Origin: Desulfonatronospira thiodismutans ASO3-1
GTDB lineage: Bacteria > Desulfobacterota > Desulfovibrionia > Desulfovibrionales > Desulfonatronovibrionaceae
Assembly (NCBI RefSeq): GCF_000174435.1
Contig: NZ_ACJN02000003.1
Span: 946,263-1,010,262, forward strand
DNA length: 64,000 bases
Direction of reading: 5' to 3'
The translations under genes and the position numbers were made by a program. Below the pieces are notes generated by a model that did not search any database, was not told the origin of the DNA, and worked only from the letters and a program-made list of their open reading frames with translations. The number at the start of each line of letters is the position of its first letter. Position 1 is the stretch's first letter. This document shows positions 44,406 through 61,711 of this stretch, piece by piece.

Positions 44406-46490
44406 TTATGCCTTTTCCACCTTTACAAAATGTTCCTGCAGGGCCACTGCACCTCCGGCAGGATCCCAGATGTCCAGGCCGCCTTTCATGAGCCGGTGGT
44501 CGGCAACTCCCTTGTTTCTGGCCCTGGTTTCCGCCGGGACGTCACTTCCGAAGCCGTGGACCATGAATACCGCGTCCGGATGCATAAATTCCGTCACATA
44601 AGCCTTGATCTTGCCTGAATAACCGTTGGAGCCGCTGACCTTGACTAAGTCATTGTTGCTTATGCCCATTTCCGCGGCTTTTTTGTCGTTGATCCAGAGT
44701 TCGTTCTCGGGCATCTGCTCATGCAGGATTGGATTATTCTGGGTATGACCCTGGGTATGTACGCCGCAGCGACCGAAGGTGATCCTGAACCAGCCCTTCT
44801 TGGGAGCCTGTTTGTCCTCATACGGCTTAAGAGAAGGAATGCCTGCCTCTTCCCATTTGGGGGCGATTATTTCAATTTTTCCCGAGGCGGTCTTGAACTT
44901 GAACTGCTCCCTGGGAAAATAGATGGGCTTGTCAGTTAGAGATACCATGCCGGTGGCCTTGAAGTCCTCAGGTTTTACCCCGGTATCCGCAAGCTGGTAG
45001 CGCCAGATGTCTTCGATGGATTCAAAAGCCAGCTTATCCAGACCCATTTTCTGGGACAGGCCGCAGAGTATCTCCCAGTCGGCCCGGGTGTCGTACTTGG
45101 GCGGCAGTGCCCTGTGGCGCACAAAGAAATGCGGCTTAAGGCCGTTTTTAGCGGCTATGATGCTTTCGCGCTCCAGATATGGAGACAAGGGCAGGACCAC
45201 GTCGGAATTCCAGGCCGTGGCTGACCAGGAGAAAGTAACCGATACCATGAGGTCCAGGTTGTCCGTAATCTTCTTCAGGGCCTCGGGGTCGGGAAAGGCC
45301 ATGAATGGATCGTGCCGGTAAGCTATGTAGGCCTTTACCGGATATGGATCCTGCTTTTCTATGGCCTGAAAGCCCAAATGCAAAAGCCCTGGACCCGGAT
45401 CAAAATGTCCATACCTGGTGCCTACCCCGTCAGCCCGCTCATCTTCGGGCTTGGGATAAAGGGATGCCAGGGCCTTGAGGCCCTTGCTGCCGCAGTCCCC
45501 GGGTTTGGCCATGAAGGGCAGGCCGCCCTTGACCCCGATGCTGCCAAGCAATGCATTGATAATATATATGGTCCTGGAGACATAGAAAGAATCGGTATAT
45601 CTTGCGGTATTCCAGCCGGGATGCCAGACTACGGAAGGCATGGCCTTGACCAGGTCCACCACAAAGTCGCGGATCTCCCTGGCCTTGATGCCTGTCTTTT
45701 TCTCGGCCCATTCCGGAGTATAGTCCTGGACAAAATTGCGCAGCTGATCAAAATCCTGCACAAAGCTGTGCACATAGTCTGCATCATAAAGGTTCTTGTT
45801 GATGAGCTCGTTGATGACAGCCAGATTAAAGGCATAATCTGTTCCGGGCCTGATCATGAGAAAACGGTCCGCCTTGCCCGCGGTCTTGGTGGCCCGCACA
45901 TCTATGACCGTGACCTTGCAGCCGTTGTCCACGGCATCCAGAAGGTCGTTGACTTCTTTTACATTGATTGCTTCCAGGATATTGCGTGTTTGCAGCACAA
46001 CATGTTTTGCGTTTTTAAGATCATAAGCCACCCCCTTGCGGCCGTAACCCATGACCGACATGGCCGCGTGCTGCACATTGCGAGCGCAGGAAGCGTCGTG
46101 GTTGCTGTAGTTGGGCGAACCAAGACCGCGTACGAATGCCTGATGCAGATCACGGAAAGGCCCTCCCCGGTCTGACCACAATAAAGAGCGCCCGCCATGC
46201 TCCTGAATTATCCCCCCAAGCTTGTCCGCCACATAATCCAGTGCTTCATCCCAGGATGCCTTGCGCCACTGTCCTTCTCCGCGCTTGCCCGTACGGATCA
46301 GGGGGTGACGGATGCGGTCCGGATCGTTGATAAGCCCGGCACCTGCTCCGCCGCGGGCACACAGGGCGCCCTTGAGGGCAGAGTGGGGATTGCCCTGTAT
46401 GAACTTGAGCTGGTCCCCATGCACTTCCACTTCTATGGGGCACCTGACCGTACACATGCCGCATACACTGTAAACTTTGTTGTCAGTCAT
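44406..46490 (-). CDS. Molybdopterin oxidoreductase, PsrA/PhsA-like, no Tat signal
   Basis: This 694-aa protein belongs to the DMSO-reductase family, nearest in pattern to polysulfide/thiosulfate reductase catalytic subunits. The N-terminal [4Fe-4S] site is VCGMCTVRCPIEVEV with a fourth Cys in ALKGALCARGGAGAG. A Cys in NHDASCARNVQHAA is the likely Mo/W ligand. Further cofactor segments are VIDVRATKTAGKAD, HPGWNTARYTDSF and the C-terminal HTQGHTQNNPILHEQ. AGGAT precedes ATG 46490; the extension to 46640 is not a twin-arginine signal. The protein therefore looks cytoplasmic, unusual for PsrA/PhsA. It is divergent from a NuoI-like gene; substrate not proven. Confidence 0.85.
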   Translation of the reverse strand: MTDNKVYSVCGMCTVRCPIEVEVHGDQLKFIQGNPHSALKGALCARGGAGAGLINDPDRIRHPLIRTGKRGEGQWRKASWDEALDYVADKLGGIIQEHGGRSLLWSDRGGPFRDLHQAFVRGLGSPNYSNHDASCARNVQHAAMSVMGYGRKGVAYDLKNAKHVVLQTRNILEAINVKEVNDLLDAVDNGCKVTVIDVRATKTAGKADRFLMIRPGTDYAFNLAVINELINKNLYDADYVHSFVQDFDQLRNFVQDYTPEWAEKKTGIKAREIRDFVVDLVKAMPSVVWHPGWNTARYTDSFYVSRTIYIINALLGSIGVKGGLPFMAKPGDCGSKGLKALASLYPKPEDERADGVGTRYGHFDPGPGLLHLGFQAIEKQDPYPVKAYIAYRHDPFMAFPDPEALKKITDNLDLMVSVTFSWSATAWNSDVVLPLSPYLERESIIAAKNGLKPHFFVRHRALPPKYDTRADWEILCGLSQKMGLDKLAFESIEDIWRYQLADTGVKPEDFKATGMVSLTDKPIYFPREQFKFKTASGKIEIIAPKWEEAGIPSLKPYEDKQAPKKGWFRITFGRCGVHTQGHTQNNPILHEQMPENELWINDKKAAEMGISNNDLVKVSGSNGYSGKIKAYVTEFMHPDAVFMVHGFGSDVPAETRARNKGVADHRLMKGGLDIWDPAGGAVALQEHFVKVEKA

Positions 46491-46893
46491 ATTATCCTCC
46501 AAGCTTTTTATTGTCAGTAGCAAACACCAGGATTTATGACAAGCAAAAAAGTATTTCGAGAAAAAAAACACATTCTCTCCCATCCAGAACAGCACCAAAG
46601 CCTGATGACAGGTAAAACAACAGCTGATATGGATAAGCATATCCGTAAAAAATGATGTCTAAATAGATATTTTAAATTACAAAACTCATGTGATTATTCA
46701 GAACACGCAGCTTGTACTTTTCAGGACATGCAGACTTGCAAGAAAACTGTTTTACAAAGAAAATGTAATGAGTTATACTGCAAGAACAATATTCCTACAC
46801 AATAAGTATGTTTTTCCTCTGAGGGTACAGGAAGATACTGCATTACATCTGATGATGCACTGCCTTCTGGTACCGCCTGCTAACCTGACAACA
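46491..46893. other. Divergent region between oxidoreductase and NuoI-like genes
   Basis: About 400 AT-rich bases that probably carry divergent promoters. Open frame extends through 46690-46893 upstream of the NuoI-like start, but its translation has no resemblance to the NuoI family and looks non-coding. No operator could be identified. Confidence 0.45.
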
Positions 46894-47523
46894 ATGATGG
46901 AAGCCATGTTTTTCAGCACTATCAGAAAAACTATCAAAGGACTGTGGAGCCTGGGCGTAGGACTCAAGGTCACGTCTGTCAATTTTTTCCGTCCTCCCGT
47001 TACTGTTCATTATCCGCGGCAGGTTGTACCTTCCCTGGAAGGATACCGAGGCCATGTGGAACTGGTTCCATCCGCGGAAGACCCGGGGGCCTCCAGATGC
47101 ATCGGCTGCGGTGCATGCGTCAGAATCTGCCCCGGGGCCTGCATTTCCATCAAGGTCTCTCACAAAAGACCTCACCTTGCTCCAAAAAAGACCGGCAAGC
47201 CTCCTGACCATGACCAGGGGCATTTTCTCATTCCCATGCCCAAAGCCAGGGCCCTGCCGGGGATTGCCAGGCGCAGCCCCACATCTTTCAAGCTGAACTA
47301 CAACTACTGCAGCCTGTGCGGTCTGTGTGTGGAGACCTGTCCAGCCGGGGCACTGGCCTTCTCCAGCAACATCTATCTTGCCGGATACACCCGCAACGAA
47401 TTCAAATACGACCTGCTGGCCAGGCTCGAGTACAGGGCCAGGGATAAAAGCAGGCCGGCTGAAGGAAGCAGAGTTCAGGACAATGGCCGTGATAACCATT
47501 CAGGGGGTCTTCGGTGTTTATAA
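46894..47523 (+). CDS. NuoI-like two-[4Fe-4S] protein with C terminus altered by insertion
   Basis: This 209-aa protein resembles NADH-quinone oxidoreductase subunit I. It has the N-terminal TIKGLWSLGVGLKVTSVNFF and FRPPVTVHYPRQ segments, and two ferredoxin motifs, CIGCGACVRICPGACI and CSLCGLCVETCPAGAL. It stands alone, without other complex I genes, and may shuttle electrons to the divergent molybdopterin enzyme. The open frame starts at 46690, but ATG 46894 (or the next codon) matches NuoI N termini; there is no clear ribosome site. The final codons are encoded by the mobile element at 47492; with the element removed the protein would end DNGRE. Confidence 0.7.
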   Translation: MMEAMFFSTIRKTIKGLWSLGVGLKVTSVNFFRPPVTVHYPRQVVPSLEGYRGHVELVPSAEDPGASRCIGCGACVRICPGACISIKVSHKRPHLAPKKTGKPPDHDQGHFLIPMPKARALPGIARRSPTSFKLNYNYCSLCGLCVETCPAGALAFSSNIYLAGYTRNEFKYDLLARLEYRARDKSRPAEGSRVQDNGRDNHSGGLRCL

Positions 47524-48162: not shown

Positions 48163-48678
48163 ATGAGCAGCTATCTCATCAAGATCAACGGTAAAAGGTG
48201 CATCAGCTGCAAAGCCTGCGAAGTGCACTGCAAAGCCAAAAACAGGGTTCCCGAGGGAGCCAGGCTGGGCCAGCTGGTGACCATCGGCCCGGTCAAGAGA
48301 AAGGAAAAGCCCAGGTATCTGAATCTTTTTCTGCCCTGTTTTCACTGTGAAACCCCCTGGTGCGTGCATGCCTGCCCCACAGGTGCTTTGTACAAGCGGG
48401 ACAAGGACGGCATAGTCATGGTCCAGGAGGAACTTTGCGTGGGCTGCAAGGCCTGCATAATGTCCTGTCCCTGGGATATTCCGCAGTGGGACGAGACCAA
48501 TGGGCGAATCATGAAGTGCGACTACTGCAGCGACCGCATAGACCGGGGAGAGAAACCGGCCTGTGTTACAGCCTGTACTGCCCACGCCCTGAGCTTCATT
48601 GATCCCAACCAGGCTTCGGCCAGAACCAGGGAGAGCTTTGCAAGTCGTGTTCTGTTATCCAGACAGGACAAAAAATAA
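48163..48678 (+). CDS. Four-[4Fe-4S] ferredoxin subunit, PsrB/DmsB-like
   Basis: This 171-aa protein carries sixteen cysteines in the four-cluster pattern of PsrB/PhsB/DmsB electron-transfer subunits: CISCKACEVHC, CFHCETPWCVHAC, CVGCKACIMSCPWDIPQW and CDYCSDRI plus PACVTAC. It should pass electrons between a molybdopterin catalytic subunit and a membrane or soluble partner. No signal peptide is present, which agrees with the cytoplasmic look of the nearby oxidoreductase. TAAGGAGG precedes ATG 48163. It heads a rightward run with a TauE/SafE permease 35 bases downstream. No PsrC-like membrane anchor is present. Confidence 0.88.
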   Translation: MSSYLIKINGKRCISCKACEVHCKAKNRVPEGARLGQLVTIGPVKRKEKPRYLNLFLPCFHCETPWCVHACPTGALYKRDKDGIVMVQEELCVGCKACIMSCPWDIPQWDETNGRIMKCDYCSDRIDRGEKPACVTACTAHALSFIDPNQASARTRESFASRVLLSRQDKK

Positions 48679-48712: not shown

Positions 48713-49900
48713 ATGCACAAAAAATTTTTCCTTGCCTGCCTTTTTTCACTGGCCCTGTTTCTGGCTCTGCAGGGCATGGCTTTTGCGGATGTAGATGTTG
48801 AGGAAATCATCGAAGATCCTCATCTCCTGGAAGAAGCCATCCAGAGTGCCCACGAATCAGGACATCTGGACAAAGACGACCCGGAAGGGTATCTGGGCAT
48901 ACCCGGTGCGCCGCAGATCAATCTGTTTATCGCCTTTATCTGGGCCATCGTGGTTGGCTGGATTTTTTCCACAGTCGGAGCTTTTGGCGGAATTGCCGCA
49001 GGCATAGGTCACATATCCATCTATGGACTGGGGGCCTATGCAGACAAGTTCGAAGGTAAATCTGCAGCCATAAATACCGCTGTTACAGACTCCATCCGGG
49101 TATCCAACCAGTTTATGGTGGGCTTCAGCGCCCTGGTCTCCACCCTCAACTACTGGAAGCTGGGCCGGCTGGTTATTCCGGTGGGCATTGCCCTGGCCAT
49201 AGGCTCCATCCTGGGCAGCTATCTGGTGCCCACCCTGACCGCCGGGCGTATCTCCTTCGAAGACTACATCTCTCTCTTCGGCATCTTTGTTCTGGCCCTG
49301 GGCTGCTGGATGTTCTACCAGACCACCCCCAGGGGACAGAAAAGCAAGAAAAAGGCCAAAGAAGCAGCCCAGGCCTTTGAAGAAACCATGAAACGCAAGA
49401 GAAGCGGCGAAGCCATTGACACTTCCGAGCTCGGGGTGAAAATGACCTCCTTTAACCCCAAAAAGATCAGTTTTGCCTTTTATGGGGTGGAATTCTCTTT
49501 TAACCCCCTGTTCCCCATACTGGGCGGCTTTGTCATCGCAGCCATTGCCGCATTTCTGGGTGTGGGCGGTGGCTTCATGCTGGTGCCCTTTATCACTGCC
49601 GTGGCCGGACTGCCCATGTACCTGGCCGCAGGGACTTCGGCCCTGGCCGTGCTCGTGGGCATGATCACCGCTATCCTGAGCTACCTGGCTGCAGGCGTGC
49701 TGGTTCACTGGTCTCTTATCGGGACTCAGCTGGTGGGCATATTCATCGGCTCCATGATAGGACCGCGCACTTCGCAGTATATTCCGGAAAAGGTCCTCAC
49801 CAGGATATTCATCGTCCTGGCCTTTTACGTGGGCATCAACTACATCATCATGGGCATCACCGGCACCCAGATCCATGAATTCCTGGCCGGTGCCGGCTGA
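48713..49900 (+). CDS. TauE/SafE-family permease
   Basis: This 395-aa membrane protein starts with a hydrophobic leader (MHKKFFLACLFSLALFLALQ...AFADVDVEE), likely a signal peptide, followed by an acidic periplasmic stretch of about 45 residues, then eight or so transmembrane segments in two halves. The glycine-rich AAIAAFLGVGGGFMLVPFI and family-type LGSYLVPTLTAGRI are TauE/SafE signatures. Members export sulfite, sulfoacetate and related anions. A long cytoplasmic Lys-rich loop (about residues 205-250) divides the halves. AGGAGG precedes the start. Position after a PsrB-like ferredoxin suggests export of a sulfur oxyanion. Confidence 0.88.
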   Translation: MHKKFFLACLFSLALFLALQGMAFADVDVEEIIEDPHLLEEAIQSAHESGHLDKDDPEGYLGIPGAPQINLFIAFIWAIVVGWIFSTVGAFGGIAAGIGHISIYGLGAYADKFEGKSAAINTAVTDSIRVSNQFMVGFSALVSTLNYWKLGRLVIPVGIALAIGSILGSYLVPTLTAGRISFEDYISLFGIFVLALGCWMFYQTTPRGQKSKKKAKEAAQAFEETMKRKRSGEAIDTSELGVKMTSFNPKKISFAFYGVEFSFNPLFPILGGFVIAAIAAFLGVGGGFMLVPFITAVAGLPMYLAAGTSALAVLVGMITAILSYLAAGVLVHWSLIGTQLVGIFIGSMIGPRTSQYIPEKVLTRIFIVLAFYVGINYIIMGITGTQIHEFLAGAG

Positions 49901-49944
49901 TTGACCAGGCCCTAAACCTGCAGTCTAAAGTGACTTGACAATCC

Positions 49945-49975
49945 AGGGCGGCTTTAACCGGGTTAAAGCCGCCCT
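49945..49975 (+). terminator. Perfect 15-bp-arm hairpin, probable terminator or attenuator
   Basis: AGGGCGGCTTTAACC (49945-49959) and its exact inverse (49961-49975) form a strong hairpin followed by gcttgcTTTTTG. It lies 45 bases after the permease stop and about 50 bases before the next start, so it may end or reduce transcription into the downstream genes. Confidence 0.7.
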
Positions 49976-50027
49976 GCTTGCTTTTTGCCGCTGCTTCTGC
50001 GATAGTTTTTCAAACAACGGATACCTT

Positions 50028-50654
50028 ATGAACTGGTGGGATCACTTGATAATCATGCTGGACCTGGTGCTCATCGCCCCCTACAGGTGGTTTGAAAACC
50101 CGGTCAACGGCTTCTTCTTCGGCACTTTTGTCCTCTGCCTTTGGTGTGTGTTCGCCGGGGAAATAACTTTCCGCATCGGATCCTGGATCAACCGCAACCA
50201 TATCCGACGGTTCCGGTCCAACATGGTCAGAATGCACAACCTCTCGGTCAAGGCGCTTCTGCTCAAGGACAAGGAAAACTACCGGGCTTGCAACAAGGAA
50301 GCCAACGAGGCCTTTGGCAAATACTTCTTCAATATGCTCACCATGGGGGCAGCCGTTCTATGGCCGGTCCCCTTTGCCCTGGGCTGGATGAATACCCGGT
50401 TCGGCCACATCGAGTTTGCACTGCTTTTCCCTCTGCCTGTTCTGGGCCAGAGCGTGGGCTTTGCCGCGGTTCTCATCCCCATGTATATCCTGTGCCGCAT
50501 ATTCTGGGCGCAAATCAAAAAGAAAATGCCGGATACACCGGCTGAGCCCGGTCTAAAGCCCGGTGAAACAGGGCAGGAAGAAATGATAAGTATGCACGAA
50601 GTGGAAAAAGAGGGCAGGATACCCGAAAGATTCTGGGACAGCAGCAAATCATAA
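50028..50654 (+). CDS. Membrane protein of unknown function
   Basis: This 208-aa protein has three or four hydrophobic segments: about residues 7-19, 24-43 (FFFGTFVLCLWCVFAGEITF), 103-120 (FFNMLTMGAAVLWPVPFALG) and 133-160 (LLFPLPVLGQSVGFAAVLIP). Between the second and third is a charged region, INRNHIRRFRSNMVRMHNLS, ending in a short segment like a helical hairpin. The C-terminal tail is acidic and Pro-rich. No family was recognised with certainty. ATG 50028 was chosen because the open frame upstream (to 49935) is encoded by the terminator hairpin. It lies between the TauE-like and FmdE-fusion genes. Confidence 0.65.
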   Translation: MNWWDHLIIMLDLVLIAPYRWFENPVNGFFFGTFVLCLWCVFAGEITFRIGSWINRNHIRRFRSNMVRMHNLSVKALLLKDKENYRACNKEANEAFGKYFFNMLTMGAAVLWPVPFALGWMNTRFGHIEFALLFPLPVLGQSVGFAAVLIPMYILCRIFWAQIKKKMPDTPAEPGLKPGETGQEEMISMHEVEKEGRIPERFWDSSKS

Positions 50655-50689: not shown

Positions 50690-52306
50690 ATGCGTATCGG
50701 CGGTTATGAGTTCGAAGAATTTCTGGAGGTGGTTCGAAATTTTCACGGCAGCCCGGCCCCGGGTATAATAGTAGGCGGGATCATGGTGGATATGGCCAGG
50801 GATGCCCTGCCCCCGGACACCATCTTTGACGCCGTGGTGGAAACCCCCAAGTGCCTGCCCGATGCGGTTCAGCTCCTGACTTTATGCACAGTGGGCAACA
50901 GCTGGCTGAAAATAGTCAACCTGGGACGCTACGCCCTGACCTTCTACGACAAGTATACAGGACAGGGGGTGCGGGTATTCGTGGATCCTGTAAAACTTGA
51001 GAAATGGGACGAAATAAAAGGCTGGATTCTGAAACTCAAGCCCAAACAGGAACAGGATTTTGAACGGCTCATGCATCAGATAAGAACTGCCGGCCGGGAC
51101 ATACTTACCGCCAGGCCCATGCAGGTGGACATGGATCAGCTTACCCGCAAAAAAATGTCCAGCATTGCAGTCTGCCCCATATGCAATGAGCCATATCCTG
51201 CAGATGACGGCGCGGCCTGCAGGGGATGCCACGGGGACAGCCCCTATATATCAGAAGGCGAGGATATGCAGGAGCCGGAACTGGAGCAGGTGTCCGTACA
51301 TGAGGCCGTGGGGCAGAAGGCCGCGCACGATATGACCGGCATAGAGCCCGGCAAATCCAAGGGCGTGGTCATCAAACGCGGACAGGAAATAAATTTCTCT
51401 GATATCTGCCGCCTGCAGCAGATCGGCAGGCAGAACCTCTACACCGAAGCTGCGCCCAGCGATAAGGACTGGGTACATGAGGACGAGGCAGCCGAAAGTT
51501 TTGCCCGGGCCATGGCCGGTGAAGGAGTGGAGCTTGGCCTGCCTCCCAGAGAAGGCCGGGTCAATCTCAAGGCGGGCCGGGACGGCCTGCTTGTGGCCCA
51601 GAAAGACAATCTTCTGGCTTTCAACCTGGTGCCCCAGGTCATGTGCGCCAGCCGTCAGAGCTATATGCTGGTGAAAAAAGGTTCTGTCATCGCAGGTACC
51701 AGGGCCATACCCCTGTACCTTCCCAGATCTAACTTCAATAAGGCCATGCAGGTACTGAACCAGGGGCCGCTTTTCAAAGTCCTGCCGCTTATGCAAAAAA
51801 AGGTGGGGCTGCTCATCACCGGGACAGAGGTTTTCGAGGGTATTATCCAGGACCGCTTCGAGCCCATCATAAAGGACAAGGTGCAAAAACTTGGCTCGGA
51901 GGTAAACAGGTCTATAATCTGCCCAGATGACAAAGAAGAGATAAAATCCTGCCTTACCCGGCTTCTGGATTCCGGCTGCGATATGATCATAACCACGGCC
52001 GGACTTTCTGTTGACCCTGACGATGTCACCCGCAAAGCCATTCAGGAGGCAGGGGCCAGTGAAATGCTCTACGGAGCCCCCATCCTGCCCGGAGCCATGA
52101 CCATGCTCTGCTGGATTGATTCTGTACCGGTCATTGGAGTGCCGGCCTGTGCACTTTATTTCAAGACCACCAGCTTTGATCTGCTGCTGCCGAGGCTTCT
52201 GGCCGGCTTAAAAATAACCCGTCTGGACCTGGCCCAGATGGCGGACGGATCCCTGTGCCTGGCCTGCAAGTCCTGCACATATCCCAAGTGTCCCTTTGGG
52301 AAGTAG
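50690..52306 (+). CDS. FmdE-domain / molybdopterin-binding (MoCF) fusion protein
   Basis: This 538-aa protein joins an N-terminal FmdE domain (about residues 5-150: FHGSPAPGIIVGGIMVDMA, TLCTVGNSWLKIVNLGRYAL), a four-Cys zinc-ribbon-like site (CPICNEPYPADDGAACRGC), a MoeA-like middle (about 220-350) and a MoCF molybdopterin-binding domain (about 365-500: KKVGLLITGTEVFEGIIQDR, DMIITTAGLSVDPDDVTRKA, LPGAMTMLCWIDSVPVIGVP). It ends in a second Cys cluster (CLACKSCTYPKCPFGK). FmdE accompanies tungsten/molybdenum formylmethanofuran dehydrogenases and formate dehydrogenases; the fusion may deliver or mature a molybdopterin cofactor, perhaps for the nearby oxidoreductase. Confidence 0.8.
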   Translation: MRIGGYEFEEFLEVVRNFHGSPAPGIIVGGIMVDMARDALPPDTIFDAVVETPKCLPDAVQLLTLCTVGNSWLKIVNLGRYALTFYDKYTGQGVRVFVDPVKLEKWDEIKGWILKLKPKQEQDFERLMHQIRTAGRDILTARPMQVDMDQLTRKKMSSIAVCPICNEPYPADDGAACRGCHGDSPYISEGEDMQEPELEQVSVHEAVGQKAAHDMTGIEPGKSKGVVIKRGQEINFSDICRLQQIGRQNLYTEAAPSDKDWVHEDEAAESFARAMAGEGVELGLPPREGRVNLKAGRDGLLVAQKDNLLAFNLVPQVMCASRQSYMLVKKGSVIAGTRAIPLYLPRSNFNKAMQVLNQGPLFKVLPLMQKKVGLLITGTEVFEGIIQDRFEPIIKDKVQKLGSEVNRSIICPDDKEEIKSCLTRLLDSGCDMIITTAGLSVDPDDVTRKAIQEAGASEMLYGAPILPGAMTMLCWIDSVPVIGVPACALYFKTTSFDLLLPRLLAGLKITRLDLAQMADGSLCLACKSCTYPKCPFGK

Positions 52307-53031: not shown

Positions 53032-53955
53032 ATGCACAAAAAAAGCGTACTTTGCCTGATGCTACTTGTCCTGTCGCTGGGTTTTCTTTTTTCCTGCGGC
53101 GAGGACGAAACCCCGGTCAAGGTGAGCCTGGAAAAACGCGAGGAGATCTCCATCAGGCCCCAGGCCGCCGCACTGACTTATGCCTATCTTCCCCAGTACT
53201 CCCATACGGAATCCTTTCAGCGGCACAACCGTCTGGTGGAGTACCTGTCTCAGGAAACCGGGCTGTCCATCCGCCAGGTGTTTCCGGATACTTTCGACGA
53301 TCATATAAATAAATTCGGCCAGGGAAAAATAGACATTTCCTTTTCCAACCCCTTTGTCTACGCCAAGCTGGCCGGTCGCTTCGGCGGAGAAGCCTTCACC
53401 CGCATTATTGAAGAGGACGGGAGGGCCGAGTTCCGGGGCAAGATTATAGCCCGCAGGGATAACCAGGAAATACAGACCTTAGAAGACTGCAAGGGCACCT
53501 CCTGGGTTGCAGTGGATCCTTCCTCTGCCGGGGGATACCTCTTTGTCCTGGGCCACTTTGTGGAACACGAAATAACCCTTGATGATTTTGCAGAAGTTGT
53601 ATTTGCAGGAGGCAGGCAGGAAAACGTGATCCTCGGAGTTTATTCCGGGCTGCATGATATCGGTGCCATCCGGGAAGGCTCCCTGAGCGTGGTGGAAGAC
53701 AAGATCGATACCCGTCAAATCAAAGTCATTGATCACAGCAGGTGGTATCCGGGGTGGGTCTACGCACACAGCCCAAGGCTTACAGATGAAACTGTTGCAA
53801 AAATTAAAGAGGCCATGCTCAAACTGGATTACGACGATCCCGAACATAGGGACATACTGGAAGCGGCGCGTTTCAAAGGTTTTGTCCCTTCAAGTGATGA
53901 GGATTTCGATCCCATCCGGGATCTTAGCAAAAAGGTAGGGCTGGAGCTTGACTGA
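53032..53955 (+). CDS. PhnD-like substrate-binding lipoprotein
   Basis: This 307-aa periplasmic-binding protein is of the PhnD/PtxB (phosphate/phosphite/phosphonate-binding) fold. It starts MHKKSVLCLMLLVLSLGFLFSC, a lipoprotein signal with lipobox FLFS-C. Family segments include YAYLPQYSHTESFQRHNRLV, IDISFSNPFVYAKLA, WVAVDPSSAGGYLFVLGHF, VFAGGRQENVILGVYSGLHD and the later TRQIKVIDHSRWYPGWVYA. Family members bind phosphonate, phosphite or related anions or act as sensor inputs. No ABC transporter is adjacent; the next gene is a sensor kinase that overlaps its end, so it is probably a ligand-sensing partner. ATG 53032 (AAAGG upstream) was chosen over TTG 53008. Confidence 0.82.
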   Translation: MHKKSVLCLMLLVLSLGFLFSCGEDETPVKVSLEKREEISIRPQAAALTYAYLPQYSHTESFQRHNRLVEYLSQETGLSIRQVFPDTFDDHINKFGQGKIDISFSNPFVYAKLAGRFGGEAFTRIIEEDGRAEFRGKIIARRDNQEIQTLEDCKGTSWVAVDPSSAGGYLFVLGHFVEHEITLDDFAEVVFAGGRQENVILGVYSGLHDIGAIREGSLSVVEDKIDTRQIKVIDHSRWYPGWVYAHSPRLTDETVAKIKEAMLKLDYDDPEHRDILEAARFKGFVPSSDEDFDPIRDLSKKVGLELD

Positions 53956-56029
53956 CAGGTTGAAGAGCTTTCTTTTCCGGCTCAGGTTCAGGACCAAGAT
54001 CACCCTGGGCATGGCGGCCATGCTGATCTTAAGCTGCGTTATAATCGGGCTGACCCTGTCCAACATGGCCTCCACCGCCCTTCTGGAAGAGGGCAAAAAG
54101 CGGGGCAGCGCCCTTAGCTCCGGTCTGGCCTTCCGTCTGGCCGAACCCATACTGGCCACGGATTTCCTGCAGATGAAAAACCTCATCGACAACGTTCACA
54201 CCCAGTATGAAGACGTGGTATACGTCTTCTTGATTGACACCGAGGGTAACGTCTTGTCCCATACCTTTACCGGAGGATTTCCCACCGACCTGCTCCAGGT
54301 GAATATGGACCCCTCAGACCCTCAGCCTCTGCTTTTGTCCACGGAAAAAGGCACCATATACGACTGCGCTTCTCCTGTCCTTCTCGGAGACAGGAACCTG
54401 GGCACGGTGCGGCTGGGTCTGTCCAGGGACCACCTGGAGATTCTAATCCAGCGCCAGCGCTGGACCGCTCTTCTGACCACCCTGGGGGTGCTCACCCTGG
54501 GCCTGGTGCTTTCATCCTGGTTCGCCACCACTGTCACCAGACGTCTGAACAAGCTGCGCTGGTCCGCTGAAGAGGTGGTACAGGGCAACCTGGACATCCA
54601 GACCAGCTCAGAGCCTCGCAGGCATTGCTGGGAAATAATGCAGTGCGGCAAACAGGAGTGCCCCGCCTACGCAGACACAAGACGGCGCTGCTGGTATATC
54701 CCGGAAACCCTGTGCGAGGACTGCCAGAACATAGGCCACAGGCAAAAGATTGAAAACTGCCGCAAATGCAGAGTATACAGACAACTGGTAGGCGATGAGA
54801 TCCAGGACCTGTCCGAGGCCTTTGACGTCATGGCCCTGACTGTAAAAAATCACATCAACGAACTGATTGAGCGGGAAAAAACCATTGTCCAGCAGCAGGG
54901 GCTTCTCAAAACAATAATGAACGTCACCCCGGACTTTATCACCCTGCAGGACAGAAATCTCAAGTATCAGTTTGCCAGCAAGGCCTTTTGCGACTATTTC
55001 GATCTCAAAGAAGATGACATCCTGGGCAGGACGGACTTTGAAATCTTTCCGGAAGAACAGGCAGACAGCAACTACCACGAGGACCGCCAGATTCTGTCCA
55101 CAGGCAGGCCCCTGTCCAAGGAGGTGACCCTGAGCAGAAAAGGGCGGGAAGTATGGATGCACGTACTCAAAGTCCCTGTTTACGACCAGGAAAAAAACAT
55201 TATCGGACTGTTGCTCACCGCCCGGGATATAACCATGCTCAAGAAGTATCAGGAGCAGCTCATCCAGTCCCAGAAAATGGAGGACCTGGGTCGCCTGGCC
55301 GGAGGGGTGGCCCACGAGATCAACACCCCCCTGGGGATTATCCTGGGCTATACCCAGCTGCTTCTGGAAGAGGTGGAAAATGATGAGTGGGCAGAGGACT
55401 TAAAGACCATAGAAAAGCAGACCAAGATCTGCCGCAAAATAGTTGCCGACCTTCTGGGCTTTTCCAGATATTCACAGTCCACCTCCCAGCCTGTGGACAT
55501 GAACAGGTCCCTGGAAGAAGTCATCAAGCTGGTGGAGCATGTCCTGTCCCTGAGCCATATAAGGATCTATAAATCTTTGGACCCCAATATTCCTCCTTTT
55601 GTCGGCGATCACGAACGCCTGAAGCAGGTCTGGCTCAACCTCATAAACAATGCTGCAGACGCCATAGGCCAGGACGGAGTTATATACGTCAAATCCAAGC
55701 TTTGCGCCCACAGGCAGAGAATCATAATCAGCATAGCTGATACCGGCGCAGGAATAGAAGAAGAGTCCCTGAGCAAGATCTTCGATCCCTTCTTCACCAC
55801 CAAGAGCGTGGGCAAAGGCACCGGGCTTGGCCTGTCTGTGTCCTTCGGCATTATCAAGGACCATGGCGGGGATATATCGGCGCTTAGCCCCCCGCCTGTG
55901 GAATACCTGCCCCGGGATTTTCCCAGATCACCGAGTTACGGCCCGGGTACAGTATTTATCGTAGAGCTGCCCCTGGAAGGAAAAACCCTTGAAAAGGAGA
56001 ACGAAGATGGCGGTCATTGCAGTACTTGA
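53948..56029 (+). CDS. Membrane sensor histidine kinase with Cys-rich linker
   Basis: This 693-aa kinase has TM1 (about residues 18-38), a periplasmic domain (about 39-175), TM2 (about 176-197), a HAMP segment, a cysteine-rich linker (about 225-285: CWEIMQCGKQECPAY, CWYIPETLCEDCQ, CRKCRVYRQL; the two-CW type) then PAS (about 315-435), HisKA (LAGGVAHEINTPLGIILGY) and ATPase (LINNAADAIGQDG, GTGLGLSVSFGI) domains. It starts at TTG 53948 inside the end of the PhnD-like gene, so translation is coupled. The lipoprotein is probably its input, and the linker probably binds a metal or [Fe-S] cluster; both are inferences. Confidence 0.88.
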   Translation: MTDRLKSFLFRLRFRTKITLGMAAMLILSCVIIGLTLSNMASTALLEEGKKRGSALSSGLAFRLAEPILATDFLQMKNLIDNVHTQYEDVVYVFLIDTEGNVLSHTFTGGFPTDLLQVNMDPSDPQPLLLSTEKGTIYDCASPVLLGDRNLGTVRLGLSRDHLEILIQRQRWTALLTTLGVLTLGLVLSSWFATTVTRRLNKLRWSAEEVVQGNLDIQTSSEPRRHCWEIMQCGKQECPAYADTRRRCWYIPETLCEDCQNIGHRQKIENCRKCRVYRQLVGDEIQDLSEAFDVMALTVKNHINELIEREKTIVQQQGLLKTIMNVTPDFITLQDRNLKYQFASKAFCDYFDLKEDDILGRTDFEIFPEEQADSNYHEDRQILSTGRPLSKEVTLSRKGREVWMHVLKVPVYDQEKNIIGLLLTARDITMLKKYQEQLIQSQKMEDLGRLAGGVAHEINTPLGIILGYTQLLLEEVENDEWAEDLKTIEKQTKICRKIVADLLGFSRYSQSTSQPVDMNRSLEEVIKLVEHVLSLSHIRIYKSLDPNIPPFVGDHERLKQVWLNLINNAADAIGQDGVIYVKSKLCAHRQRIIISIADTGAGIEEESLSKIFDPFFTTKSVGKGTGLGLSVSFGIIKDHGGDISALSPPPVEYLPRDFPRSPSYGPGTVFIVELPLEGKTLEKENEDGGHCST

Positions 56030-56384
56030 CGACGTCCAGGACGCCACCATTCTGGTGCAGAGGATTCTTGGACGCAAAGGACATACAGTGCATCCCTTCA
56101 CCGAGGAGGACGATTTTTTCGCCCATCTCAGGGAAAACCACGTGGACCTGGCCATACTGGACATCAAGCTCAAAAAGATGAGCGGGGTGGACGTTCTGGA
56201 AGAAGCCAAAAAGATAACTCCCGGTCTCAGGGTGCTCATGCTCACGGGATATCCCACCCTGGAAACCGCCCAGAGGGCTCTGCAGCTGGGAGCGGACGAG
56301 TACCTGGTCAAGCCCATAGACAAGCACGAACTCGAGGAAAAGGTGGCCCAGGTCCTGGCCGATGAGGCAAAGGGGCCGGGCTGA
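56007..56384 (+). CDS. Single-domain response regulator
   Basis: This 125-aa receiver-only protein has the acidic pocket VIAVLDDVQDATILVQR, phospho-acceptor Asp in LAILDIKLKKMSGVDVLE, Thr in VLMLTGYPTLETAQRAL and Lys in YLVKPIDKHE. It should receive phosphate from the kinase at 53948, whose end it overlaps by 23 bases. AAGGAG precedes ATG 56007. Its stop overlaps the next start (TGATG), so it may act directly on or with the PEP-synthase-like protein. There is no output domain. Confidence 0.9.
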   Translation: MAVIAVLDDVQDATILVQRILGRKGHTVHPFTEEDDFFAHLRENHVDLAILDIKLKKMSGVDVLEEAKKITPGLRVLMLTGYPTLETAQRALQLGADEYLVKPIDKHELEEKVAQVLADEAKGPG

Positions 56385-58777
56385 TGTGGCTTACCCAGCT
56401 CCTTGGCTACTGGTCCAGGCAGGTCTTTGCCCCCGGGGCCCAGCTACGCCGAAAATACCAGTACTTCAGGGACCTGCTGGCCCAGGACAGGCACTGCCTG
56501 GAAAAAATGGCCGAAATCGAGGAAATCCATTACCGCGGCCTGCACTGTGATTATGCCCGGGTGGCCAGGCTGTGCAGAGAGCTCCTGCGGGACGTGGACA
56601 TGCTGGTCAAGAGCCTGGTGGCCCTGAATCCGCTTCGCTACAGGGTGCTCAAGGATTACAAAAAAAAAGTCTCCTTTTACGTGGAGCTTGCTCTCGACGT
56701 GCAGTCAGGCCCGGATGAGCGCCCCTGGTTTCTAAACCTGGACTCACCGCACGCCAGCCAGGAGCTTCTGGGAGGCAAGGCCCACAACCTGGCCCTGATC
56801 AGCAAAAAAGGCTTTCCTGTTCCCCGGGGCTTTTGCATCACCACCCGGGCCTTCAATCACTTTTTAAACGCAAACAATCTGCGCCCCCGCATAAACGAAA
56901 TCCTGGGGAACATCTGCCTGGACTCGGCAGACCTGGAAGAATACTCCAGGCAGCTGCAACAGCTTGTCCTGGATGCAGAAATCCCCCAGGACCTGTACCT
57001 GGCCCTCCAGGACAGGCTCCAGGAAATGCCTCAAGGAAGACTGGCCTTTCGTTCCAGCGCCTTTGGAGAGGACAGTGAGCTAAGCTTCGCCGGGCAGTAC
57101 GAAAGCCTTTTAAACGTGGACCGTGAAAACTGGGTCCAGGCCTACAAGGAAGTCCTGGCCGGAAAATACTCCCCCCGGGCCTTGAGCTACCGCATAAGAG
57201 CCGGTTTCCCCGACGAGCTCCTGTCCATGGCCGTGCTGGTGCTGGAAATGCTGCCGGCCCGGGAAAGCGGGGTGATCTACACCTCAGATGTGAATCATCC
57301 AGAACATATGGGCATCTACACTGTTTCCGGGCTGGGAGACAAGCTGGTGGGCGGGGAAGCCAGGGCCAGGGAATATTTCCTGGAAAAAGACAAAGAGCCT
57401 GCCCCCTCCAGTGATCATCCAGCCTATCTGCCAGACCTGCACCGCTTTGCCCTGGAGCTTGAAAATTATTTTGAATTTCCCCAGGACATCGAGTGGGTAG
57501 CAGACCAGCAGGACCGAGTCATCCTGGTCCAGACCCGTCCTTTTCACAGTGCCAGCGAAGGGCAAAAAGGTTTGGAACCTGACCTGCCGGTCTTGTGCAA
57601 AGGCCAGTGGGCCTCTCCGGGCATGGCCCAGGGCCCGGTTTTCAGGCTGCGCTCCCGGGAGAACATTTCCCAGATTCCCAAAGATGTCATCGTAGTTACT
57701 CCAGGCCTCTATCCGGAACTGACAGCGGTTCTGGACAGGATAAGCGCAATTATAGCCCTGGAAGGCAGTGCGGCCAGTCACCTGGCCACTATAGCCAGGG
57801 AAGAGGCAGTCCCGGCGGTTATCAATGTGGATAAAGACATGCCGCAGTGGGAAGACGGCCTCTGGGTTACAGTGGACGGTTATCGCGGCACTGTACACGA
57901 GGGACGGTCCCAGGCTGCACAGTCAGCTCCCACCCAGAGGCAGACCTGGATGGGCGAAAAGATGCGCTCAGTGCTTAAAAGCATCTCCACCCTGAACCTG
58001 AAAGACGCCCAGTCAGAAGATTTTATCCCCCAGAACTGCCGCTCCGTGCATGATATCATCAGGTTCACCCATGAAATGGGGGTCCGCGAAATGTTCTCCC
58101 TGTCCGGGTCCAGGGGCAAAGGCCTGGGCAGCTCCAGAATCCTTGAGCTGGAGATTCCTATGTCCTTTCGTGTCCTGGACCTGGAAGAGGGGCTGCACCC
58201 TTCAGCGGAAAAACAGGAGCGCATCACCCTGGACCAGGTGGCCAGCAAACCCTTTCAGGCACTGTTTCAGGGCTTGACCTGGAAAAGCATCAAGTGGGAT
58301 CACAGCACCTGGCATTTCGACTGGCAGGAATTCGACCGAATGAGCGCAGGCATCTTCGACCCGGCCAAGTCCGCTGCCCTCAGCAGCTATGCCCTGGTGG
58401 CCAGGGATTACATGCATGCCCAGATCCGCTTTGGTTACCATTTTGCAGTGGTGGACTCCCTCATGAGTTCTAACAGGGATCAGAACTACGCCCAGTTCAG
58501 CTTCAAGGGAGGAGGAGCCCGCGAAGAGCAGAAGATATTAAGGCTTGAGGCAATCAAAATCGTCCTGGAACAATTCGGCTTTACCTGCTTTATCAAGGGA
58601 GATATGCTGAGCGCTGAAACAGCCCGCGAGGACGAGCAGGCTATCTGGCGGTCCATGCTGGTACTGGGCTACCTCCTGGGCAGGACCAGGCTTCTGGACA
58701 TGAGCATGCACAGGCTGGATGTAAACGACCTGGCCAGGCAAATAATAGAGGAAATCGATGCAGCTTTGGCCCTTTAG
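56384..58777 (+). CDS. PEP-synthase-like phosphotransfer protein lacking the PEP/pyruvate barrel
   Basis: This 797-aa protein has an N-terminal helical region (about residues 1-120), a PPDK/PEP-synthase ATP-grasp domain (about 125-395: LLGGKAHNLALISKKGFPVP, RLAFRSSAFGEDSELSFAGQ, YSPRALSYRI, VEW-type IEWVADQ, VILVQTRPF) and a phospho-His mobile domain (about 410-505: LEGSAASHLATIAREEAVPA, catalytic His in SHLA). In place of the usual TIM-barrel, about 290 unrecognised residues follow. Such proteins are seen in dikinase-type enzymes that phosphorylate other substrates. It starts in the stop of the receiver gene and overlaps the phosphatase gene by 20 bases. Confidence 0.8.
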   Translation: MWLTQLLGYWSRQVFAPGAQLRRKYQYFRDLLAQDRHCLEKMAEIEEIHYRGLHCDYARVARLCRELLRDVDMLVKSLVALNPLRYRVLKDYKKKVSFYVELALDVQSGPDERPWFLNLDSPHASQELLGGKAHNLALISKKGFPVPRGFCITTRAFNHFLNANNLRPRINEILGNICLDSADLEEYSRQLQQLVLDAEIPQDLYLALQDRLQEMPQGRLAFRSSAFGEDSELSFAGQYESLLNVDRENWVQAYKEVLAGKYSPRALSYRIRAGFPDELLSMAVLVLEMLPARESGVIYTSDVNHPEHMGIYTVSGLGDKLVGGEARAREYFLEKDKEPAPSSDHPAYLPDLHRFALELENYFEFPQDIEWVADQQDRVILVQTRPFHSASEGQKGLEPDLPVLCKGQWASPGMAQGPVFRLRSRENISQIPKDVIVVTPGLYPELTAVLDRISAIIALEGSAASHLATIAREEAVPAVINVDKDMPQWEDGLWVTVDGYRGTVHEGRSQAAQSAPTQRQTWMGEKMRSVLKSISTLNLKDAQSEDFIPQNCRSVHDIIRFTHEMGVREMFSLSGSRGKGLGSSRILELEIPMSFRVLDLEEGLHPSAEKQERITLDQVASKPFQALFQGLTWKSIKWDHSTWHFDWQEFDRMSAGIFDPAKSAALSSYALVARDYMHAQIRFGYHFAVVDSLMSSNRDQNYAQFSFKGGGAREEQKILRLEAIKIVLEQFGFTCFIKGDMLSAETAREDEQAIWRSMLVLGYLLGRTRLLDMSMHRLDVNDLARQIIEEIDAALAL

Positions 58778-59816
58778 AAAAAAACAAAAAAAAAGCAGCT
58801 TGGTAAGCTGGGTTACGCCCTACCTGGCGGTAGGCCCTGCACCCATGTCCCACGCCCACCTGCAGCATCTGAAGCAGGCCGGGATTGACGCCATCCTGAA
58901 CCTGTGCGCCGAGTTCCCGGACCTGCCGGAAATCGAACGCCGGGCCGGCTTTGATGTTTACTACCTGCCTGTGGAGGACGAGGAAACCCCGGACATGGAA
59001 ACCATGGACAACGCCCTGGAATGGATGGACGAATCCATTTACTTAGGCAAAAAAGTCCTGGTACACTGCCGCCACGGCATCGGCCGCACCGGCACCCTCA
59101 CCGCGGCTTACCTCCTGCGCAAGGGCCTGACTTCCAGAAAGGTAAACAAACTGCTAAATCCCCTGCGCTCCCAGCCGGCCAACTACAATCAGTGGAGCCT
59201 GCTCAGGCAGTACGGGCGTCTCCAGGGCCGGCTACAGATCCGTGAGCCCAGCCTGGAACAAAAAAACATTGTGGATCTCACCCCTTTCTTCAAGGACCTG
59301 GAGGTCCTGCTAAACAGAGTCGAGATAAACCTGGAGGGGAGGCGTCTGTGCGGCAGAGAACATATCCTGTGCTGCTCACTGGACGTCCGGGTGAGCTTAG
59401 TGGAGGCGGTTTACATCTCCCACAAGATAAACACCGTTTTAACCCGGGAAAGCAGGCAGGAGCTCATCCGCAAGGCCTGTGGAACCAACGGGACCGGAGA
59501 GGGAGATGAGCCCCTGGAATGTTCCCTGTGCCCCCTGAACCAGAACCGCAAGTGCTCTTTCTTCCACCACCGCCCCCTGGCCTGCCGCCTCTTCGATTAC
59601 AGCGACCTGGGATCAAAAGAATATGCTGATATAATGGATCAGGTAGGCCAGCTCTCCCGCAACCTTTTTCTGGCCTTTGGAGGACAGTTTCTGCAGCAGG
59701 ACATAAATTTTGACTTGACCCGGGTCATCTCCGGAAAGTATGTCCAGGACTTTTTCCATATCCTCATGCAATGTGCTGAGGGAAACAACCGGATTTCACC
59801 TGAAAAAGAGCTCTGA
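58758..59816 (+). CDS. Dual-specificity phosphatase fused to YkgJ-type Cys-cluster domain
   Basis: This 352-aa protein has an N-terminal dual-specificity phosphatase (about residues 15-150). The catalytic P-loop is VLVHCRHGIGRTGTLTAAYL (H-C-x5-R with Gly and Thr), with the general acid probably in VEDEETPDM. The C-terminal half (about 180-350) carries cysteines of the CxxCxxCC/YkgJ kind: ILCCSLDV, CSLCPLNQNRKCSFFHHRPL and ACRLFDY, probably a metal or [Fe-S] site. The fusion suggests redox- or metal-gated phosphatase activity. It overlaps the end of the PEP-synthase-like gene by 20 bases, so the two are likely coupled in translation and function. Confidence 0.85.
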   Translation: MQLWPFRKKQKKSSLVSWVTPYLAVGPAPMSHAHLQHLKQAGIDAILNLCAEFPDLPEIERRAGFDVYYLPVEDEETPDMETMDNALEWMDESIYLGKKVLVHCRHGIGRTGTLTAAYLLRKGLTSRKVNKLLNPLRSQPANYNQWSLLRQYGRLQGRLQIREPSLEQKNIVDLTPFFKDLEVLLNRVEINLEGRRLCGREHILCCSLDVRVSLVEAVYISHKINTVLTRESRQELIRKACGTNGTGEGDEPLECSLCPLNQNRKCSFFHHRPLACRLFDYSDLGSKEYADIMDQVGQLSRNLFLAFGGQFLQQDINFDLTRVISGKYVQDFFHILMQCAEGNNRISPEKEL

Positions 59817-59842: not shown

Positions 59843-60745
59843 ATGACCCTGGACACCCTGCACACCTCGGCCATGCTCTTTTTGAGCATTGTTTTCGAGT
59901 CCGCCCCGTTTATTCTCCTGGGAGCGCTCTTTTCCTCTCTGGTACTGGTATTTATCCCCGCGGACTTCTTCAGAAGAAAGCTGCCCCGAAACCCGGTACT
60001 TTCCCTGCCTCCGGCCCTGGCCCTGAGCGCGGTTTTTCCGGTGTGCGAGTGCGCCATAATCCCCGTGGTGCGCGGACTGGTGCGCAAGGGCATGCCCATA
60101 AGTGCAGGCACAGTGTTCCTCGTGGCCGCCCCCATTTTAAACCCGGTGGTCCTGGCCTCTACATTTTATGCCTTCAGGTTCAACCTGGACGTAGTTGTGC
60201 TCAGGTTTGTCCTGGCTGCTGCGGCAGCCCTTATTGTGGGCTTTATTGTCTACCTGGCCTTAGAATCAGGCGGCCGTCGCCCCTTTGCCAGGGATCTCCC
60301 CATGGCTGGAGAGACACACTCCAGGCCCTCTTTCTTCAGTCCCGGCACCTGGAAAAGGGTGCTGGATCACAGCATTGACGAATTTTTCACCATCGGCAAA
60401 TATTTCATCCTGGGGGCCGGGGTGGCCTCGCTTTTTCAAACCTATATGAGCCAGCAGGCGGTCATGGCCTTTACCGAATCCGCTTTTATCGCCCCCATGG
60501 TCATGATGCTCCTGGGATACGTGCTCTCGCTTTGCTCCACTGCGGATGCCTTTGTGGCCGCATCCTTCGCCGGCACCTTCACTCCCATGTCCATCGTGGC
60601 ATTCCTGGTGTTCGGACCCATGCTGGACATTAAAAACACGGCCATGCTCCTGGGATACTTTCCCCTGCGCTTCGTTATTTTATTCATTGCCGCGGCAGCC
60701 GCCACTGTTTATACACTGGTTGTAACCATGCAGTTTCTGTTGTAA
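59843..60745 (+). CDS. UPF0718/ArsP-type permease
   Basis: This 300-aa membrane protein has about eight hydrophobic segments and the hallmark FPVCECAIIPVVRGLVRKGM (about residues 61-80), a conserved cysteine-containing motif of the UPF0718 permease family. A second half has EFFTIGKYFILGAGVASLF and LSLCSTADAFVAASFAGTFT. Family members include ArsP organoarsenical exporters and B. subtilis YcgR, which is paired with YcgQ (TIGR03943), as here. The transported species is unknown. It lies 26 bases after the phosphatase gene. Confidence 0.85.
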   Translation: MTLDTLHTSAMLFLSIVFESAPFILLGALFSSLVLVFIPADFFRRKLPRNPVLSLPPALALSAVFPVCECAIIPVVRGLVRKGMPISAGTVFLVAAPILNPVVLASTFYAFRFNLDVVVLRFVLAAAAALIVGFIVYLALESGGRRPFARDLPMAGETHSRPSFFSPGTWKRVLDHSIDEFFTIGKYFILGAGVASLFQTYMSQQAVMAFTESAFIAPMVMMLLGYVLSLCSTADAFVAASFAGTFTPMSIVAFLVFGPMLDIKNTAMLLGYFPLRFVILFIAAAAATVYTLVVTMQFLL

Positions 60746-60754
60746 AAATAAGCC

Positions 60755-61711
60755 ATGCTCAAGACAATAATCCTTTTCGCCCTGGCCATCCTGCAGGTCA
60801 AACTCATATATACCGGGGACATCCTGTACTACCTGTCCCCCAAGATGCTGCCCTTTTTCTACTTCTCCACCACTGTATTTCTGCTGCTGGCGGCTTACAG
60901 GGCCATGCTCATCCTGGCGGAATCAAGCGGTCTGGAAACCACCTCCCAGGCCTGCGACTGCTGCGCCCACGACGAGGATGCCTCGAAGTTTTCCAGGACC
61001 GCCATGTATATCCTCTTCTGCCTGCCCCTTTTGACCGGCTTTCTGGTCCCGCCCAAGCTTTTGGACAGCTCTCTGGTGGACAAAAAAGGCATAATCTACC
61101 GGGAAGTTGCCTCAACCCCTTCTGATCAGCTCCCTTCAGAGACAAGGCAGCAGTACACGGATCAGCCGGGGGAAATTGACCATGAATGGTGGGAAGAATA
61201 CGAGTTTGAAACTCAAGAGCAAAACGTGCAGGAGGAAGAACAGCAGGCCCTGCGCGACGAACTGGGCATCTGGTACGATGAGGACTACTATAGGGACCTG
61301 GCTGACAGGCTCATTGATGGTGATAAAATCGTGGTCAGCGATTCAGGGCACCTGGATGTCATGCTGGTCATCGCCGCTTACCAGGAAGAATTCCAGGGCC
61401 GGGAAATAGAACTTACCGGATTTGTCTACCGCGACGATCACATGAGCAGGGACGAAGTCGCCCTGACCAGGACAGCCATTACCTGCTGTCTGGCGGATGC
61501 GACATTCTACGGCACCCTGATCCGCGGTGAAGACCTGCACCGCCTGGAACGCGACCAGTGGATAACCGTAAAAGGCGAAATCGACCTGGCCCGGGTCCAG
61601 GGACAAAACATGATCATGATCAACGCCAGGCAGGTCCAGGAGATCGACCCGCCGGATTCACCCTACGTCTACCCTTATCTCTATCAACAATACAACCCGG
61701 AGGCGCAGTGA
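60755..61711 (+). CDS. TIGR03943-family permease-associated protein (YcgQ-like)
   Basis: This 318-aa protein has three or four hydrophobic segments in the first 110 residues (LKTIILFALAILQVKLIYTG, FYFSTTVFLLLAAYRAMLI, MYILFCLPLLTGFLVPPKLL) and a CDCCAHDED motif between them. A long acidic region (about 125-190) precedes the conserved soluble domain (about 195-310: EIELTGFVYRDDHMSRDEVA, LTRTAITCCLADA, WITVKGEIDLAR). This is the pattern of the TIGR03943 family, always paired with a UPF0718 permease, as at 59843. It ends the seven-gene operon. Confidence 0.88.
   Translation: MLKTIILFALAILQVKLIYTGDILYYLSPKMLPFFYFSTTVFLLLAAYRAMLILAESSGLETTSQACDCCAHDEDASKFSRTAMYILFCLPLLTGFLVPPKLLDSSLVDKKGIIYREVASTPSDQLPSETRQQYTDQPGEIDHEWWEEYEFETQEQNVQEEEQQALRDELGIWYDEDYYRDLADRLIDGDKIVVSDSGHLDVMLVIAAYQEEFQGREIELTGFVYRDDHMSRDEVALTRTAITCCLADATFYGTLIRGEDLHRLERDQWITVKGEIDLARVQGQNMIMINARQVQEIDPPDSPYVYPYLYQQYNPEAQ

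Follow-up and report, generated by a model that had tools for sequence, protein, structure and literature searches.

PPSL, a variant of the PEP synthase and rifampin phosphotransferase dikinases encoded in a reported but unexplained gene cluster of sulfate-reducing bacteria

In dikinases of the phosphoenolpyruvate (PEP) synthase and PPDK type, an ATP-grasp domain is followed by a swivel domain with the catalytic histidine and a PEP/pyruvate barrel, a plan from which other described systems depart. Rifampin phosphotransferase (RPH) combines ATP-grasp and swivel phospho-histidine domains with a non-pyruvate third domain, in the order ATP, RIF, His (PMC4844700, as far as the accessible part of the text goes; structure 5hv3), and the two-component dikinases HpeHI and phenylphosphate synthase use dikinase chemistry with another acceptor domain (PMC12167813, likewise an excerpt). 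Here we describe PPSL (PPS-like dikinase), a protein of 797 residues encoded from ATG to TAG at 56384..58777 on the plus strand of a 64,000-nucleotide stretch of Desulfonatronospira thiodismutans ASO3-1 (contig NZ_ACJN02000003.1, positions 946,263 to 1,010,262), called the window below and the reference for all coordinates unless a locus is named. PPSL has the order N-terminal domain, ATP-grasp, swivel domain with H466 and third domain; it thus shares the succession of ATP-grasp and swivel histidine with PEP synthase and PPDK but lacks their PEP/pyruvate barrel and has an extra N-terminal domain. Chemistry of the kind described for HpeHI is proposed for it too, although HpeHI consists of two polypeptides with a catabolic role (PMC12167813), whereas PPSL forms one polypeptide and is encoded in a signalling cluster. 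It is a variant of the PPS/RPH-type dikinases, and the cluster in which it lies has already been reported, without explanation, as the ‘nitrate cluster’ of Desulfovibrio, the series of genes being shared by annotation and order (PMC4001038, in the sections available).

In sulfate-reducing bacteria the gene carries the label phosphoenolpyruvate synthase. When compared with Pfam, PPSL matches PPDK_N (E 4.5e-61, in two stretches, the best spanning residues 127-339) and the PEP-utilizers mobile domain (E 3.2e-16, residues 431-502), and PEP-utilizers_C (PF02896), the PEP/pyruvate barrel, is absent at E<=1. PF02896 is present at two further places in the same genome, and the model therefore works there. 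The NCBIfam PEP synthase models give 223 bits (cut-off 598) and 217 bits (cut-off 739.75), so that equivalog level is not reached, and the 223 bits cover residues of the first two domains; the model for RPH gives 133 bits (cut-off 999). In the full-length structure prediction (pLDDT 88.9), residues 112-507 resemble AMPPNP-bound RPH (379 residues, Z 37.5, 3.2 Å), the best structural match, and PPDK is matched at Z 29.2 over 348 residues. The ATP-grasp domain (about residues 126-391; 56759..57556, plus strand) is delimited by Pfam, by this structural match and by invariant residues, and the phospho-histidine swivel domain occupies about residues 403-510 (57590..57913, plus strand), with the codon of H466 at 57779-57781. 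When 136 full-length proteins were aligned (PPSL from the window, 87 further cassette members and 48 paralogs), K132, R223, E229, E370, Q383 and R385 of the ATP-grasp domain and the catalytic H466 are invariant in all 135 relatives. For RPH, Lys and Arg residues are described as acting in ATP binding and the His as acting in phosphotransfer (PMC4844700, in the part consulted), and alignments suggest a residue-by-residue correspondence between the two proteins. An earlier note on this DNA, made from its letters, had read ATP-grasp and phospho-histidine domains with the catalytic His into the protein, and this assignment stands. PPSL is confirmed as the ATP-using half of a PEP synthase with a different domain replacing the pyruvate half.

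This third domain (residues 515-797, about 283 residues; 57926..58774, plus strand), delimited by conservation and predicted fold, represents a new family. When residues 505-797 of 68 family members were scanned singly, no Pfam family was common to more than two of them (best E 0.0064, in one member; 0.12 for the domain from the window), which agrees with the earlier note, where the region was called unrecognised; a profile of the domain reached E 0.1 and 0.53 at best against PDB sequences. AlphaFold2 run on the 68 third domains (pLDDT 89.7, pTM 0.80) predicts a mixed alpha/beta fold and no TIM barrel appeared, so that the further claim of that note, a missing pyruvate-binding barrel to be checked by structure prediction, also holds, and the non-barrel fold supports its view of the substrate: on this model pyruvate is an unlikely phosphate acceptor. 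A divergent PEP synthase acting on pyruvate, to which the 223 bits might point, is highly improbable, since that score lies far from its cut-off of 598, PF02896 is missing from PPSL and present in other proteins of the genome, and the prediction for the third domain shows no barrel; a TIM-barrel reading of the third domain was ruled out on the last two grounds. Foldseek found nothing at E<=0.001 for the model in PDB and BFVD (best in PDB, E 0.038). VIA-align gave a top Z of 7.4 over just 64 residues of a ferredoxin-like second half, and weak values of 5.4-5.9 over 131-143 residues to RCC reductase, coproporphyrinogen oxidase and PcyA; no fold family is named because these matches are partial or weak and below the trust level of the tool. 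The RIF-binding domain of RPH was not among the matches listed.

The third domain is nonetheless far from a chance sequence, because a single scan of genome contigs brought up at least 576 relatives in which it is conserved, and 40 divergent copies share 14 invariant columns. H556, D557, H563, E564, G709, G710, R720 and D772 are invariant in all 135 full-length relatives, and H686 is retained in 133. Such an enzyme-like set of His, Asp, Glu, Arg and Gly residues would suit a dikinase acting on a small molecule, with the third domain binding a metabolite much as the rifamycin-binding domain of RPH binds its substrate, the product serving as a signal or activated intermediate and the receiver encoded next to PPSL only regulating the enzyme. 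RPH and HpeHI, both with altered third domains, do phosphorylate small molecules (PMC4844700, PMC12167813, in the parts seen). The PPSL family, however, lies in signalling and transport clusters with no recognisable biosynthetic or catabolic pathway, and natural variants without the kinase part, described below, retain the third domain, which leaves this explanation doubtful.

A sample of 297 genomes from the phylum Desulfobacterota contained 107 that encode the third domain, many of them in several copies; the genome of the window has one. Among the best 80 of the at least 576 matches, which were ranked by the window's own domain, supplied the cassette loci and hence lean towards the cassette, nearly all carry titles of delta-proteobacterial sulfate reducers. 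Searches of PADLOC, PHROG and plasmids gave no relative, and among viral contigs 30 stretches matched a pattern, none of which was confirmed. In a tree of the full-length proteins, the 88 cassette members, including that of the window, are split from the 48 paralogs with a support of 1.0, these labels having been assigned by how the loci were fetched.

PPSL is embedded in a set of five plus-strand genes whose reading frames overlap end to end: a PhnD/phosphonate-type periplasmic binding protein (53032..53955), a membrane histidine kinase (53948..56029; PAS, HisKA and HATPase, with weak single-Cache and HAMP matches), a stand-alone receiver with no output domain (56007..56384), PPSL itself and a dual-specificity phosphatase with a Cys-rich C-terminal part (58758..59816, overlapping the end of PPSL). 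The receiver stop codon and the PPSL start codon share one base, the last of the former and the first of the latter, and no ABC permease gene was seen among the neighbours read around the PhnD-like gene. The HisKA/HATPase architecture of the kinase and residues D14, D15, D58, T86 and K108 of the receiver (counted from 55989), invariant in 51 rows, identify the two as members of a two-component system. The phosphatase keeps the motif HC(X5)R in 66 rows; at least five Cys in its C-terminal part (198, 205, 258, 266 and 276) are invariant in 66 rows as well and may form a metal or iron-sulfur (FeS) site that could make it a sensor. Separately, a weak match of this protein to a CxxCxxCC metal-chelating family was noted.

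The arrangement is widely conserved. Downstream of PPSL, where 75 of the 80 related loci have at least 1.3 kb of sequence, the phosphatase follows directly, within 400 bases and on the same strand, in 69 of the 75. A fuller count used the 38 loci whose flanks extend 7.5 kb or more ahead of PPSL and 2 kb or more beyond it: the phosphatase is found in 35, the receiver in 29, the kinase in 25 and PhnD in 23. The link with receiver and phosphatase pointed out in the earlier note is thus a conserved trait; its further idea, that the phosphate may go to a protein or small molecule, is still a conjecture. The TauE-type permease and the DVU0250-like protein introduced below each occur in 17 of these loci, a molybdopterin enzyme in 12 and an FeS protein in 10, several fetched flanks stopping inside the molybdopterin gene. 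What looks like a minimal form is seen in Desulforhopalus and Desulfopila (L098, L101), where TauE, DVU0250-like protein and PPSL are encoded next to one another and the fetched flanks contain no receiver or phosphatase. At one locus (L141:3420-7202) the PPSL frame extends into the region of the phosphatase, which is itself matched in two frames; this is a broken or fused PPSL-phosphatase gene pair.

Across the 34 loci with all five genes, the receiver is the best-conserved part, with a median identity to the window of 66% vs 38% for PPSL. This conservation, its position immediately before PPSL and the lone receiver that often lies between two PPSL genes in paralog clusters would also suit a phosphorelay, in which the phosphate of H466 is passed to the receiver Asp and supplements the input from the histidine kinase; in strain DvH, moreover, where the kinase gene is annotated as a pseudogene, mutants of receiver and PPSL nevertheless show the phenotype described below (PMC4001038, in the available text). 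A receiver charged in this way would still need an output, however, and the receivers on the paralog side are far less similar to that of the window (about 24-37%), and such a relay seems to us unlikely. We know of no case in which the swivel His of a PPS-type enzyme passes phosphate to a receiver, which counts further against it.

A phenotype has been published for a cluster of this type. In the consulted portion of PMC4001038, the ‘nitrate cluster’ (DVU0251-0245 / Dde_0597-0605) comprises TauE, a hypothetical protein, PtxB, a kinase, a receiver, a PPDK-like protein and a dual-specificity phosphatase. The window has the same order, beginning with a DVU0251-like TauE/SafE-family permease (48713..49900) and a small DVU0250-like, membrane-like protein without a Pfam family (49935..50654), followed by PhnD, kinase, receiver, PPSL in the PPDK-like place and phosphatase; unlike the nitrate cluster, it has an inserted gene for an FmdE/MoCF_biosynth molybdopterin-binding protein (50690..52306) and a PhsA-like reductase alongside. 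The latter, a molybdopterin oxidoreductase (44406..46640, minus strand), has thiosulfate reductase PhsA as its best NCBIfam match (492 bits, below the cut-off of 694, yet top among the listed families), and a DmsB-like 4Fe-4S electron-transfer subunit is encoded at 48163..48678 (plus strand, as are the other genes just named); the pair would fit thiosulfate as a substrate, though the PhsA score is below its cut-off. Transposon mutants of DVU0246 (PPDK-like), DVU0247 (receiver), DVU0250 and DVU0251 (TauE) were reported to grow equally with and without 100 mM nitrate, whereas the mutant in the phosphatase gene DVU0245 was still inhibited, pooled and single-mutant data conflicting for DVU0250 and DVU0248, and a leaky thiosulfate transporter was suggested by the authors (PMC4001038). 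In the sections of that paper at hand the PPDK-like protein figures by annotation only, and neither its missing barrel nor its enzyme function is discussed. In our literature searches on PPSL only this paper treats the cluster; PMC3431258 also carries one locus tag, and four cluster locus tags, TauE and PEP-type terms are all absent from the part of PMC10102598 that could be searched.

These observations can be assembled into a model to which we give about an even chance: PPSL would be a signal-coupled dikinase gated by the receiver, its action would maintain an oxyanion permease in the active state, and the phosphatase would oppose it. The PhnD-like protein, the proposed oxyanion sensor for the histidine kinase, would bind thiosulfate or a related ion and inform the kinase, which would phosphorylate the lone receiver, whose residues for this are conserved. 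The receiver would then dock on PPSL and gate it, probably through the N-terminal helical domain (residues 1-114; 56384..56725, plus strand; predicted helices 2-15, 17-50, 57-81 and 88-104). This proposed docking or regulatory part, on which the earlier note is silent, has no Pfam family and no PHROG match, and P17, D35, D56 and P83 within it are conserved in cassette members. By analogy with PEP synthase and RPH, ATP would donate a phosphate to H466 with release of AMP and Pi, and the swivel domain would deliver it at the third domain. This domain may bind a putative acceptor or act as an effector on the permease of TauE type and on the DVU0250-like protein that accompanies it, and the dual-specificity phosphatase would reverse the phosphorylation. 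The DVU0250-like protein (49935-50654) has a loop with a nearly invariant H101 and invariant S104, D112 and N120 in 15 sequences, and this loop is a candidate target. With the module at work the permease would be active and thiosulfate-type ions would be taken up; loss of the module would block their entry, which fits the nitrate resistance published for mutants of the syntenic Desulfovibrio cluster.

Several points weigh against this model of permease control. The phosphatase mutant of D. alaskensis G20 has a fitness of +2.08 in nitrate, a misfit with a simple opposing phosphatase, and the DvH kinase mutant, in the gene annotated as a pseudogene, shows little or no advantage (both PMC4001038, in the part available). 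The cluster of the window matches the nitrate cluster by gene order, annotation and sizes alone, the TauE-type permease is present in only 17 of the 38 loci, and control could act on expression of the permease instead of its activity. Finally, there are two natural variants in which the N-terminal and third domains are fused, without ATP-grasp and phospho-histidine domains (L196:6308-7489 and L206 at about 1570-2313, both on the minus strand), adjoining receiver and phosphatase genes. They come from genomes G199 (393 residues) and G389, of two families of one order, and are 48% identical. Over the positions of the third domain that were compared, departures from the family residue are confined to three: H556, replaced by Tyr in G199 (G389 has His); W638, replaced by Arg in G199; and R682, for which both variants, and also a full-length relative from G387, have Lys. 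A candidate role of H556 as phosphoacceptor, considered in view of the Tyr in G199, was dropped, as the G389 variant retains this His. Because these variants keep the N-terminal and third domains, the latter is not only an acceptor site; either it has a role without a kinase in cis or it is served by paralogs in trans. The variants also speak for a regulatory scaffold or effector made of the third and N-terminal domains, modulated by autophosphorylation of the ATP-grasp/swivel part and needing no separate acceptor. There are only two examples, however, and both genomes carry full-length paralogs that could act in trans, and we hold such a scaffold to be decidedly unlikely.

Beyond the cassette, the paralogs offer a second view of the association with transporters. 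In 20 paralog loci chosen by hand from the phylum sample, a non-random set favouring tandem pairs and a class of about 1050 residues, a TSUP (TauE/SafE) or DASS transporter was found in 14, Pfam confirming the families for five examples, and TSUP alone in 13 vs 0.79 expected from gene density. Neither transporter was found at the five loci of the 1050-residue class in this set (L174-L178) or at L190. L054-L070, another 17 paralog loci, yielded a TSUP/DASS match in just 7 cases. Receivers and kinases are also frequent neighbours, and some loci have universal stress and CBS proteins as well. The members of the 1050-residue class (L174-L178, L054, L055, L063) carry some 220-230 extra C-terminal residues without a Pfam family and do not lie near TSUP; L055 alone among them has a DASS match, a weak one (26%). 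At Desulfobacterales-type loci (L131:5678-7360, L132:6234-7994 and others), a TSUP-like protein of about 550-600 residues with an added N-terminal part is encoded near PPSL.

The surroundings of the cassette in the window hold a few other features. A neighbouring 4Fe-4S ferredoxin-type protein is encoded at 46690..47523 (plus strand), and an ArsP_1-type permease with a DUF1980/TIGR03943 partner (59843..61711, plus strand) adjoins the cassette in the closest relatives only. A mechanically called open reading frame at 61778-62326 (minus strand) has a near-exact internal repeat in its translation, and hence direct DNA repeats of roughly 200 bases.

Taken more broadly, and tentatively, the family may represent a new type of signal output, in which a receiver-controlled PPS-type dikinase would use its third domain to switch TSUP/DASS permeases on by phosphorylation, with the Cys-cluster phosphatase as off switch, the module being widespread and multiplied in Desulfobacterota as a possible general control of oxyanion entry in sulfate reducers. 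This type of locus has a published and unexplained phenotype, nitrate resistance, which is relevant to souring control, and what has passed as a PPDK, an annotation error, becomes part of a testable control system for oxyanion uptake. The protein is linked to anion permeases, and its third domain, absent from Pfam, is nevertheless found in about one in three of the genomes in the phylum sample.

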